DNA from: Chitinophaga pinensis
GTDB lineage: Bacteria > Bacteroidota > Bacteroidia > NS11-12g > UBA9320
Assembly: GCA_945907065.1 (NCBI GenBank)
Contig: CAMDSC010000013.1
Span: forward strand, 1-61,881
Reading direction: 5' to 3'
DNA length: 61,881 bases
Below are positions 31,529-42,478 of the stretch, piece by piece; position 1 is the first letter of the stretch; the number at the start of each line of letters is the position of its first letter. A program made the position numbers and the translations under genes. The notes beneath the pieces were generated by a model. The model was given only the letters and a program-made list of their open reading frames with translations, had not been told where the DNA came from and did not search any database.

Positions 31529-31549
31529 GTAAATTTATACATCTTAAAA

Positions 31550-31587
31550 ATAGAAAAACCGCAATATATATATTGCGGTTTTTCTAT
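31550..31587 (+). terminator. Perfect 38-base palindromic terminator of the susCD operon
   Basis: The arm ATAGAAAAACCGCAATATA is followed directly by its exact reverse complement, ending in T-rich sequence. It lies about 20 bases after the susD stop codon. Being perfectly symmetrical, it could terminate on both strands. Confidence 0.85.
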
Positions 31588-31710
31588 TTAATGGAAAGCC
31601 GGATTTTAGACTAAAAAAACATTTGACCCCACTAAATGGGAAATATTGGTAACTCCATATAAAATTATTCTATCATTAATACTTTATCAACTGAAAACTC
31701 ATACCAGAAT

Positions 31711-41137: not shown

Positions 41138-42040
41138 CTACCCTTGCTTCAAATCCGGTTTACCTTGTTTATAATTTCGTTCTACATATTCTATTATTTT
41201 TCCAGCAATATCAGTTCCTGTAGCTTTTTCAATACCTTCCAAACCCGGTGATGAATTAACCTCAATTACCAAAGGCCCACGTTCACTTCTTAAAATATCT
41301 ACTCCAGCTATCCCTAAACCCATAGCCTCTGCAGCTGCTAAGGCGGCTTGCTCTTCTTCCTTAGTCAATTGTACAATAGAAGCTGTTCCTCCCTTATGCA
41401 AGTTACTTCTAAATTCACCTTCCACTCCTTTACGTTTCATGGCTCCTACTACTTCTCCATCTACCACAAATGCACGAATATCCTCCGCTTTGGCTTCCTT
41501 TATAAATTCCTGAACAATAATATTTTCATCCAAATCATAAAAGGCTTCAATAACCGATTCGGCAGCCTTGGCAGTTTCAGCCAATACCACTCCTTTGCCT
41601 TGGGTGCTTTCTAATAACTTTACCACCAAAGGGGCTCCCCCCACAATTTTTATAAGGTTTTTAATATCGCTTGGATATTTGGCAAATGCAGTTTTTGGAA
41701 TATTAACATCCGCACTGGCCAATATTTGTAGGCTTCGCAGTTTATCCCTACTTCGCATCAATCCTACTGAAGTGGTAGTTGTAAAAATATTTTTCACCTC
41801 AAATTGCCTAATAATATTAGCTCCATAAAAAGTTACCGAAGCACCAATTCTAGGAATTATAGCATCCAATGGTTCCAACTCGTGGTCGCCCAAAAATATT
41901 TTAGAATTGAAATGCTCAATGGCTACATAGCACTTTGTAAAATTAATGACCCTGGCGTTGTGGCCTCTTTGTATTGCAGCCTCCACCAGACGGCGGGTAG
42001 AAACCAAGTTTCCGTTTCGTGATAATATTCCTATGTTCAC
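41138..42040 (-). CDS. rimK: RimK-type ATP-grasp ligase (S6 glutamate ligase family)
   Basis: 300 residues with the ATP-grasp signatures: [39 protein letters not shown], and the metal-binding [13 protein letters not shown]. RimK adds glutamates to the C terminus of ribosomal protein S6. The start is GTG at 42040 (encoding [10 protein letters not shown], the usual N terminus). It should form a unit with the aspartic-protease-like gene at 42468-42917, but a four-helix-bundle gene with flanking repeats sits between them. Confidence 0.93.
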
Positions 42041-42046
42041 TTTTTA

Positions 42047-42077
42047 ATTGTTAATGGTTAGTTGTTAATGGTTAATT
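42047..42077. repeat. Left flank repeat of the four-helix-bundle insertion
   Basis: Two copies of TTAATGGTTA separated by GTTG, with ATTGT and ATTAA ends. It is inverted with respect to the repeat at 42443-42478. The stop codon of the four-helix-bundle gene (42072-42074) falls within it, and the rimK start lies seven bases beyond its outer end. Confidence 0.7.
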
Positions 42078-42434
42078 AATTTTCAGATTTTGCTTTGTAG
42101 TTTTTATAATACTAGTTAGTAATTTTATAATTTCTACCGTGTCATCATAAATAGTTTGAAATTGTTCTTTTGTTAAATAATCTGTTTCTTTTAGTAATTC
42201 CAACCAATACAATGTTTCATTGGCTTCTTTTTGTACTATAGCCATTTTGTGCTTAAAATCAACTTTACTTTCCGCATGTTCTGCTTCTCTAACCAAAGCA
42301 CCAACACTTGTCCCGCTTCTCAAAACCTGCTTAGAAATCACAAATTCCCTTTTATCATTTCCCAAGTATTGATATAGCTTTACAATTCGTATTGCCAACT
42401 TGCAACTTTTTGTTCTAATTACATTTTCATTCAT
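42072..42434 (-). CDS. Four-helix-bundle protein (S23 / 23S rRNA intervening-sequence family)
   Basis: 120 residues, the usual family size. NENVIRTKSCKLAIRIVKLY, SKQVLRSGTSVGALVREAEH and AIVQKEANETLYWLELL match the TIGR02436-type four-helix bundle first seen in 23S rRNA intervening sequences and related to the Avd accessory protein of diversity-generating retroelements. Function is not established. No reverse transcriptase is nearby. It is set between rimB and rimK and flanked by TTAATGGTTA-type inverted repeats that supply stop codons for it and for rimB, so it looks like an insertion. Confidence 0.88.
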   Translation of the reverse strand: MNENVIRTKSCKLAIRIVKLYQYLGNDKREFVISKQVLRSGTSVGALVREAEHAESKVDFKHKMAIVQKEANETLYWLELLKETDYLTKEQFQTIYDDTVEIIKLLTSIIKTTKQNLKIN

Positions 42435-42442
42435 TTTTCAAT

Positions 42443-42478
42443 TCCATTAACCATTTATCATTATCAATTAACCATTAG
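42443..42478. repeat. Right flank repeat of the four-helix-bundle insertion
   Basis: Reads CCATTAACCATTTATCATT, then ATCAATTAACCATTAG, so TTAACCATT occurs twice, the reverse complement of the left flank's AATGGTTAA. The final residues and stop codon of rimB (ACT AAT GGT TAA on the minus strand) are part of it. Confidence 0.7.

Follow-up and report, generated by a model that had tools for sequence, protein, structure and literature searches.

The S23/IVP proteins form an orphan family, known from open reading frames in 23S rRNA insertions and as relatives of Avd. Intervening sequences (IVSs) with an S23 gene occur sporadically in the 23S rRNA of Coxiella and Leptospira; those of Coxiella are 428-444 nt long and have complementary borders around the S23 ORF, according to PMC4990558, which also reports that an S23 homologue crystallised as a homopentamer (Lin 2006). 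Avd of the diversity-generating retroelements belongs to a related family, as stated in PMC10053308.

Several bacterial groups are rich in heptanucleotide repeats, for which neither a function nor a way of spreading is agreed. Such repeats are known as cyanobacterial STRR and in the tRNA-Leu intron. Two published types, GGGNATC of Xanthomonas and Nostoc (PMC4692102) and TAACTGA of Beggiatoaceae, Cyanobacteria and Bacteroidetes (PMC4679880), are presented as unexplained. The strand on which the GGGNATC repeats are rich in G depends on their position: it is the coding strand in the 50 bp that follow a stop codon, and the non-coding strand in the 50 bp that precede a start codon. For each Xanthomonas genome, 70-75 inverted heptamer pairs are given (PMC4692102). 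Both papers describe 7-nt tandem units between aligned ORFs, some of them overlapping a stop codon, as in the elements reported here; unlike these elements, the published arrays are described with no S23 gene inside, and the words S23, four helix and intervening sequence are absent from both texts.

The window, by which we mean the whole stretch of 61,881 nt that was analysed, carries an S23 gene between two protein genes, unlike the IVSs of 23S rRNA. All features of the locus lie on the minus strand. A RimB-like gene (PF05618; 42468-42917), identified by profile search and empty-site comparison, is followed by a left arm (42444-42477) of about five degenerate heptads (TAATGGT, TAATTGA, TAATGAT, AAATGGT, TAATGG), by the 120-aa S23 (23S_rRNA_IVP) four-helix-bundle gene (42072-42434), by a right arm (42044-42077) of inverse-orientation heptads (CCATTAA type) that overlaps the S23 stop codon, and by the RimK gene (41138-42040). 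The S23 protein scores 92 bits against PF05635 (cut-off 33.8) and 102 bits against TIGR02436 (cut-off 24), and has one solved relative, 2rld of Bacteroides thetaiotaomicron (E 1.1e-40). The inverse-orientation repeats that an earlier note had described around this gene are borne out: the 32-nt arms (42045-42076 and 42446-42477) are 78% complementary, stand 369 nt apart and contain, in gene direction, about five 7-nt units each (4.9 and 5.9 by self-match) of a degenerate TTAATGG type. As the note also had it, the AAT GGT TAA end of the rimB-like ORF lies in one repeat and the S23 stop codon in the other, while rimK starts with a GTG at 42040 just outside. Its statement that the gene splits rimB from rimK holds for RimK, which scores 372.7 bits against its equivalog model (cut-off 331). 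For RimB it holds at the family level: the upstream gene passes PF05618 (79.8 bits against 27) but misses the RimB equivalog cut-off (71.6 against 200) and is therefore named RimB-like.

The neighbours of the element are thus the rimB-like and rimK ORFs, and it is not inside an rRNA gene, although it shows the S23 ORF between complementary borders that characterises a 23S rRNA IVS. Its borders differ from those of the rRNA elements in being tandem arrays with lineage-specific units, and no sense-strand RNA-stem constraint was seen in them. The PF05635 gene is the sole ORF of at least 60 aa inside 42044-42477, and neither nuclease, transposase nor reverse transcriptase is encoded by the element. 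The arm score, by which the left arm is compared with the reverse complement of the right, is 15.5 at this locus; among same-geometry random positions for the S23-bearing loci of this genome (G000) and its relatives, 2/749 reach at least 14. The bare 14-mer TTAATTGTTAATGG is not rare, with 18 matches in G000 at up to one mismatch compared with 11 for the reversed pattern. What is unusual at the S23 gene is the inverted tandem arrangement and not the 14-mer as such.

The locus was compared with 58 relatives in all, among them the rest of the genus (G001-G006). RimK-type matches were found in 30/58 genomes, and the rimB-like/rimK junction was read in 11 relatives, while the motif used failed at four further loci. 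Within the genus the site is empty in G006, where rimK follows the rimB-like gene after 5 nt, and in G004, where 1 nt separates them; the comparison of close relatives that the earlier note had proposed thus yields two empty sites with 1-5 nt between the genes. The RimK of G006 is 97% identical to that of G000, and the rimK start codon is ATG at both empty sites and GTG in G000. The two genes also abut in four genomes of the family (G015, G009, G022, G007) and two of the order (G051, G053); in G003 of the genus, roughly 50 nt that contain small repeats but lack an S23 gene lie at the junction, and no rimB-like gene adjoins rimK in G011 and G017. The S23 unit is a lineage-specific insertion at the rimB-like/rimK junction. 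Its terminal inverted repeats and its lineage-specific presence, with an intact empty site in relatives, are features shared with insertion sequences and transposons, from which it differs in encoding no transposase; the junction bases of the filled and empty pairs have diverged, and no target-site duplication is readable in them.

Similar presence and absence were found elsewhere in the genus (gene names scoA, scoB and dapA are from NCBIfam, in which the neighbour at the C41 locus has no match). The C41 locus is filled in G000; in G006 and G004 the genes at this site are 1-2 nt apart, while G003 and G005 have no S23 gene there. Between scoA and scoB an S23 element is present in G000, G002, G003, G005 and G006, the site is empty in G004, and the gene order is another one in G001. 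In G006 and G004 the dapA locus carries gene-less arrays, the first units of which encode the final residues of DapA and its stop codon. The numbers of PF05635 matches in G000 to G006 are 9, 0, 1, 5, 4, 4 and 11 (draft assemblies; G005 is 77% complete). As side observations, the arms of the element that splits the CoA-transferase subunit genes scoA and scoB vary greatly in length among orthologues (L014, L257-L263), and in G004 two S23 elements lie about 1 kb apart (L090, C15), with proteins 95% identical and flanks partly repeated, as in a tandem duplication.

The earlier note had expected the TTAATGGTTA repeat to recur around other S23 genes of this genome. It is absent from all other eight, which have other arms, and a single terminal repeat common to all S23 genes of the genome can be rejected, as the units differ by locus. 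Taken literally, this counts against the note's reading, but 6/8 of these genes have inverted arms of their own sequence with a score of at least 12, the threshold used for inverted arms, and this is the broader finding. Seven of the nine S23 genes of G000 reach this value, and the two below it (C1a, 10.0; C7, 11.5) still have repeat units visible by eye.

Inverted arms prove to be general at S23 genes. Over five sets, which were chosen differently and include many MAGs whose labels may be wrong, arms scoring at least 12 were found at 191/244 S23 genes, compared with 12/1138 same-geometry controls in three of the sets; ten near-identical copies from G395 were excluded from these counts. The search window beside the gene was 130 nt for the relatives and the named loci, 150 nt for the non-Bacteroidota set and the class of G062, and 200 nt for the plasmids. 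In G000 and its relatives (94 loci from 131 PF05635 matches, 92 of them with 100 nt of flank on both sides), 63/92 loci have such arms, against 17/92 in direct orientation and 8/749 controls; 29/92 have none above the threshold. Compared in inverted orientation, the two arms of a locus score 16.1 on average over the 92 loci, and 8.3 when arms are swapped between loci. Among the best 80 of 194 named candidates by similarity to the window protein, 78 were tested and 68/78 have arms (131/170 jointly with the relatives; no separate control), in a set rich in one Flavobacterium site (27 loci). All 12 plasmid loci (of 25 records) have arms, many of them near-perfect heptads, under the wider search window and with no control; their hosts are Nostoc, Anabaena, Dolichospermum, Planktothrix, Euhalothece, Gloeocapsa, Chlorohelix, Treponema and Bernardetia. 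Thirteen genomes labelled non-Bacteroidota gave arms at 16/23 loci beyond the named set and 27/36 in all (control 0/171, from all 36 loci), where 36 of 50 entries were tested, ten plasmid entries and four fragments being left out, as were L341 and L342. For the class of G062, the genome of L149 labelled Thiotrichaceae, 77/369 genomes had a match and 39 of the loci were tested (30 and 9 more), with arms at 32/39 and in 4/218 controls. Armed S23 genes thereby occur in Bacteroidota, Gammaproteobacteria, Chloroflexi, Nitrospira, Planctomycetes, Cyanobacteria and a spirochaete. One MAG with a window-type S23 gene (L158, 65% identity) is labelled 'Rickettsia typhi', probably through a binning or naming error.

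The period of the arms is mostly seven. Among 338 arms from 169 loci, 210 match themselves above all of 20 dinucleotide shuffles, as do 18/264 control segments. The best lag of the 210 is 7 in 109, 14 in 54, 8 in 26, 15 in 7, 6 in 7 and another value in 7, so that 163 have a lag of 7 or 14 and 33 a lag of 8 or 15. In the relatives of G000 alone, 8-nt and other units are common (lag 7 or 14 in 57/101 arms, 8 or 15 in 33), while 46/47 strong arms from the class of G062 have period 7 or 14. The 7-nt tracts detected have a median of 5.1 units on the left (137 arms) and 4.7 on the right (145), with a mode of 4-5 and a tail up to 26, very short tracts falling below the detection threshold; some of the longest arms reach 21-26 units. 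The match between about five units and the five subunits of the crystallised homologue may be suggestive, and is only a lead. Tandem 7-nt units at cistron boundaries are also what marks the published heptamer repeats. The left arms here have G>C rather than C>G in 55 against 6, 63 against 2 and 13 against 2 loci, and in 7 against 4 on plasmids, a bias like that of the heptamers in PMC4692102; one locus in the class of G062 (L367) has the unit AGGGAAT, similar to GGGNATC.

Which arms an S23 gene has depends on the lineage of its protein more than on the genome or the site. At non-homologous sites, arms are shared (score of at least 16) in 57% of pairs above 75% protein identity, 46% at 65-75%, 15% at 55-65%, 3% at 45-55% and 0.3-1.3% below 45%; these pairs are not independent of one another, and those in the upper bins come mostly from window-type proteins. 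For pairs inside one genome with less than 55% identity, sharing is found in 1/95. The S23 proteins at C41 of G000 and C15 of G006, for example, are 80% identical and have related arms at different places, and TTAATGG-type arms accompany window-type S23 genes also in loci labelled Anaerolineales, Thiotrichaceae and Neomarinimicrobiota. When arms were swapped between loci, 0/20000 swaps were as good as the true pairs in each of four groupings (all relatives; the named loci outside the Flavobacterium site; within G000; within G006); within-genome swaps were as good in 9/20000 for G020 and 320/20000 for G008, and within-genome matching was not clear in G003, G004, G017 and G022, with 3-4 loci each. 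Among orthologues, no locus-specific matching of left and right arms was found either in the 27 Flavobacterium loci (3247/20000 swaps as good) or in the five scoA-scoB loci (2556/20000), so that fine-scale compensatory evolution of the arms was not found in these two sets. Co-expansion of the two arms is weak as well, the left and right unit counts hardly being correlated (rho 0.15, p 0.09). The tracking of protein lineage by arm type shows that gene and arms travel as one unit, which does not by itself show binding; protein and repeat might be linked simply because they are inherited together on a single piece of DNA.

Most elements occupy the space between the stop codon of one gene and the start codon of the next. 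With neighbour genes called by a simple ORF rule, the S23 gene has the same direction as both neighbours at 126 of 166 loci and the opposite one to both at 8. Ordinary gene triples of the window are co-directional in 23 of 53 cases and opposite in 6, and part of the bias in S23 direction is the usual operon structure. For loci with arms scoring at least 12, the respective values are 103/128 and 4/128. For the outer edge of the left arm, the median position is 2 nt inside the stop codon of the upstream gene (within 20 nt in 86/117); for that of the right arm, it is 6 nt ahead of the next start codon (within 20 nt in 74/110). With the empty sites of close relatives, and with arms that in most armed loci border directly on the neighbouring stop and start codons, the earlier note's picture of a repeat-bounded insertion at a cistron boundary is upheld; survival only at cistron boundaries would, however, look the same as targeting of stop codons. 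The S23 protein is under purifying selection in the pairs tested: dN/dS is 0.04-0.29 in 22 of 23 computable chosen pairs and 0.61 in one, a 24th pair being saturated. One S23 insertion is common to 27 named Flavobacterium records, many of which have the S23 start codon inside the left array (L102-L160); the gene beside it we take to be cobU-like.

Arms also occur without the gene. An inverted-repeat scan over 462 kb of G000 (400 kb sampled plus the window) gave 22 inverted pairs with a score of at least 15, six of them heptad-like by eye. These are the S23 unit, four short hairpins, and a pair that encloses 204 nt in which no S23 is readable. Of the five gene-less pairs, four match S23 arms of the genus, each those of one particular lineage, at a level that at most 2/200 random segments attain, and the fifth does not (14/200 as good). 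Two further hairpins had been picked out by their TTAATGG sequence, and their match to the window arms follows from this selection. The sequence TTAATKRTTAATKRTTA has seven matches at six places in G000, one of them the S23 arm, and five matches in G049, where heptad arrays persist in a genome without an S23 match (control 0 in both). The S23 pair is the sole gene-sized heptad-arm pair in the 462 kb, and no other cargo between heptad arms was recognised there by eye. In G013, long perfect TTAATGG runs lie at C45:10227-10271 and C3:60182-60219, away from its window-type S23 gene on C22. A different repeat of the window, a 21-nt inverted repeat without spacer at 31548-31589 (AAATAGAAAAACCGCAATATA), is perhaps a terminator.

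Among known systems, one of the closest is REP/RAYT, in which a Y1 transposase family is tied to many small intergenic palindromes with gene-less derivatives. The S23 elements resemble it in joining one protein family with many small palindromic intergenic units and gene-less derivatives; they differ in that no Y1 domain is present in the S23 element, the single Y1_Tnp gene of G000 being elsewhere (C5). We consider it probable that 42044-42477 is a copy of a minimal mobile element whose S23 protein recognises its own heptad arms, where the binding, the mobility enzyme and any domestication of the unit are inferred. The element comprises about 430-440 bp, with the S23 gene between two inverted arrays of about five degenerate 7-nt units, and entered the rimB-rimK junction in the G000 lineage after its split from G006, leaving both neighbours readable. 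The S23 protein may recognise its heptads in a similar way to the recognition of element ends by a transposase or RAYT, and may so promote the transfer or retention of copies and of gene-less derivatives, with strand cutting probably left to a host enzyme. With a unit length of 7, which is 1 modulo 3, any stop codon that the unit contains comes up in each of the three frames, as PMC4679880 already points out for the TAACTGA repeats; the unit could in this way end an upstream gene cleanly. As a general feature of the arms, stops in all three frames amount to a hint (left 41/111 against 26.5 expected; right 51 against 12.6, where the right stretch can include the S23 stop). Y1_Tnp is present in 23/58 relatives and S23 in 43, and G003, G008 and G017 have 5-7 S23 matches and no Y1 match. 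Neither reverse transcriptases nor Y1 transposases track S23 over the 58 relatives, and mobilisation by a resident enzyme of either kind was discarded. More tentatively, and with somewhat less than even confidence, S23/IVP proteins may be dedicated partners of intergenic heptanucleotide repeats in many phyla, each lineage recognising its own unit, perhaps one per subunit of a pentamer, and may thereby drive the spread of both the S23 elements and the gene-less hairpins.

The anatomy of the Coxiella IVS, an S23 ORF between complementary borders at a similar size (428-444 nt; PMC4990558), invites another explanation, in which the element is an intervening sequence of the mRNA: the arms of the transcript would pair into a stem, and a cut by RNase III would free the S23 message, as in 23S rRNA. 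The window transcript does have a better fold than its 100 shuffled versions (z -3.8), one in which a 15-bp helix joins the two arms, and the elements are mostly sense-oriented between co-directional genes. The G-U signature of a stem in sense RNA is absent, the trend being the opposite: over 142 loci, arm mismatches are G-U-compatible in 131 cases and of the A-C type in 172 (p 0.02), with 56 against 97 in the relatives and about equal numbers in the two named subsets. Locus-specific pairing is also missing among the 27 orthologues, and the near-independence of left and right unit counts speaks against paired arms as well. We regard the mRNA reading as unlikely. Because there is no G-U enrichment and no arm-by-arm matching in the 27 Flavobacterium loci, a DNA-level element, with the S23 protein as the likely reader of the heptads, is ranked above it as the likely account. 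A remnant of a diversity-generating retroelement, with S23 as its Avd accessory protein, was already disfavoured and is hardly credible: despite the kinship of S23 and Avd (PMC10053308), G000 has no PF00078 match, in agreement with the earlier note's statement that no reverse transcriptase is present, and 6/58 relatives have such a match while 43/58 have S23. In G395, a 1.5-Mb genome, an S23/Avd-like gene occurs in ten copies (L373-L382), each within a repeated cassette; over more than 1 kb these cassettes are 97-99% identical. By eye, the sequence ahead of the gene resembles a diversity-generating variable region, and some copies have repeats with a 7-nt step behind the gene. Defining element ends from these ten copies was given up, since the cassettes resemble diversity-generating retroelements.

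Two further explanations were weighed. The arms might be ordinary simple-sequence repeats, grown by polymerase slippage and mirrored by template switching, with S23 as a passenger or junction gene. Heptanucleotides are the most abundant longer simple repeats in most of the repeat-rich genomes surveyed by Mrazek 2007, for which slippage was proposed (as reported in PMC4679880), and arms of 21-26 units would fit such growth. We find this quite improbable, as it leaves unexplained the inverted arms at 191/244 S23 genes, the tracking of protein lineage by arm type at unrelated sites, and the S23 unit as the sole gene-sized heptad-arm pair in 462 kb. About as improbable, and if anything a little more so, is a resident regulatory cassette, in which S23 would bind the arms in DNA or RNA and tune itself and the operon, its spread being incidental. 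Purifying selection and the sense placement in operons would suit such a cassette, as would a position by starts and stops that resembles the published heptamers read as regulatory (PMC4692102, PMC4679880); against it, presence and absence change within the genus and the empty sites are intact.

Among the papers listed in searches of the open-licence PMC library, none ties S23 genes to heptamer repeats, and the novelty of the association is provisional. The association joins an orphan family with a class of repeats and makes binding of an S23 protein to its own heptad directly testable. It may explain the puzzling 7-base repeats long known in bacterial genomes and, if true, this class of bacterial interspersed repeats and the orphan S23 family would explain each other. 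It also describes a very small element able to sit between neighbours such as rimB-like/rimK, scoA/scoB and cas2/cas1.

Several plasmid loci have neighbours of note. On plasmids of Nostoc sp. TCL26-01 and Anabaena cylindrica (L291, L292), an S23 element lies between cas2 and cas1 on the opposite strand, and on plasmid pNsp_b of Nostoc sp. ATCC 53789 (L287) one stands directly before the XisH/XisI genes. Defence-type neighbours were seen on a Planktothrix plasmid (L290), where the S23 gene lies between DISARM drmD and an MmeI-type enzyme, and on plasmids of Gloeocapsa (Cyanobacteria) and Chlorohelix (Chloroflexota) (L293, L294), where it lies between DUF1156 and Swt1-HEPN proteins; similar TTTTAGA-type heptads are found in both of the latter.
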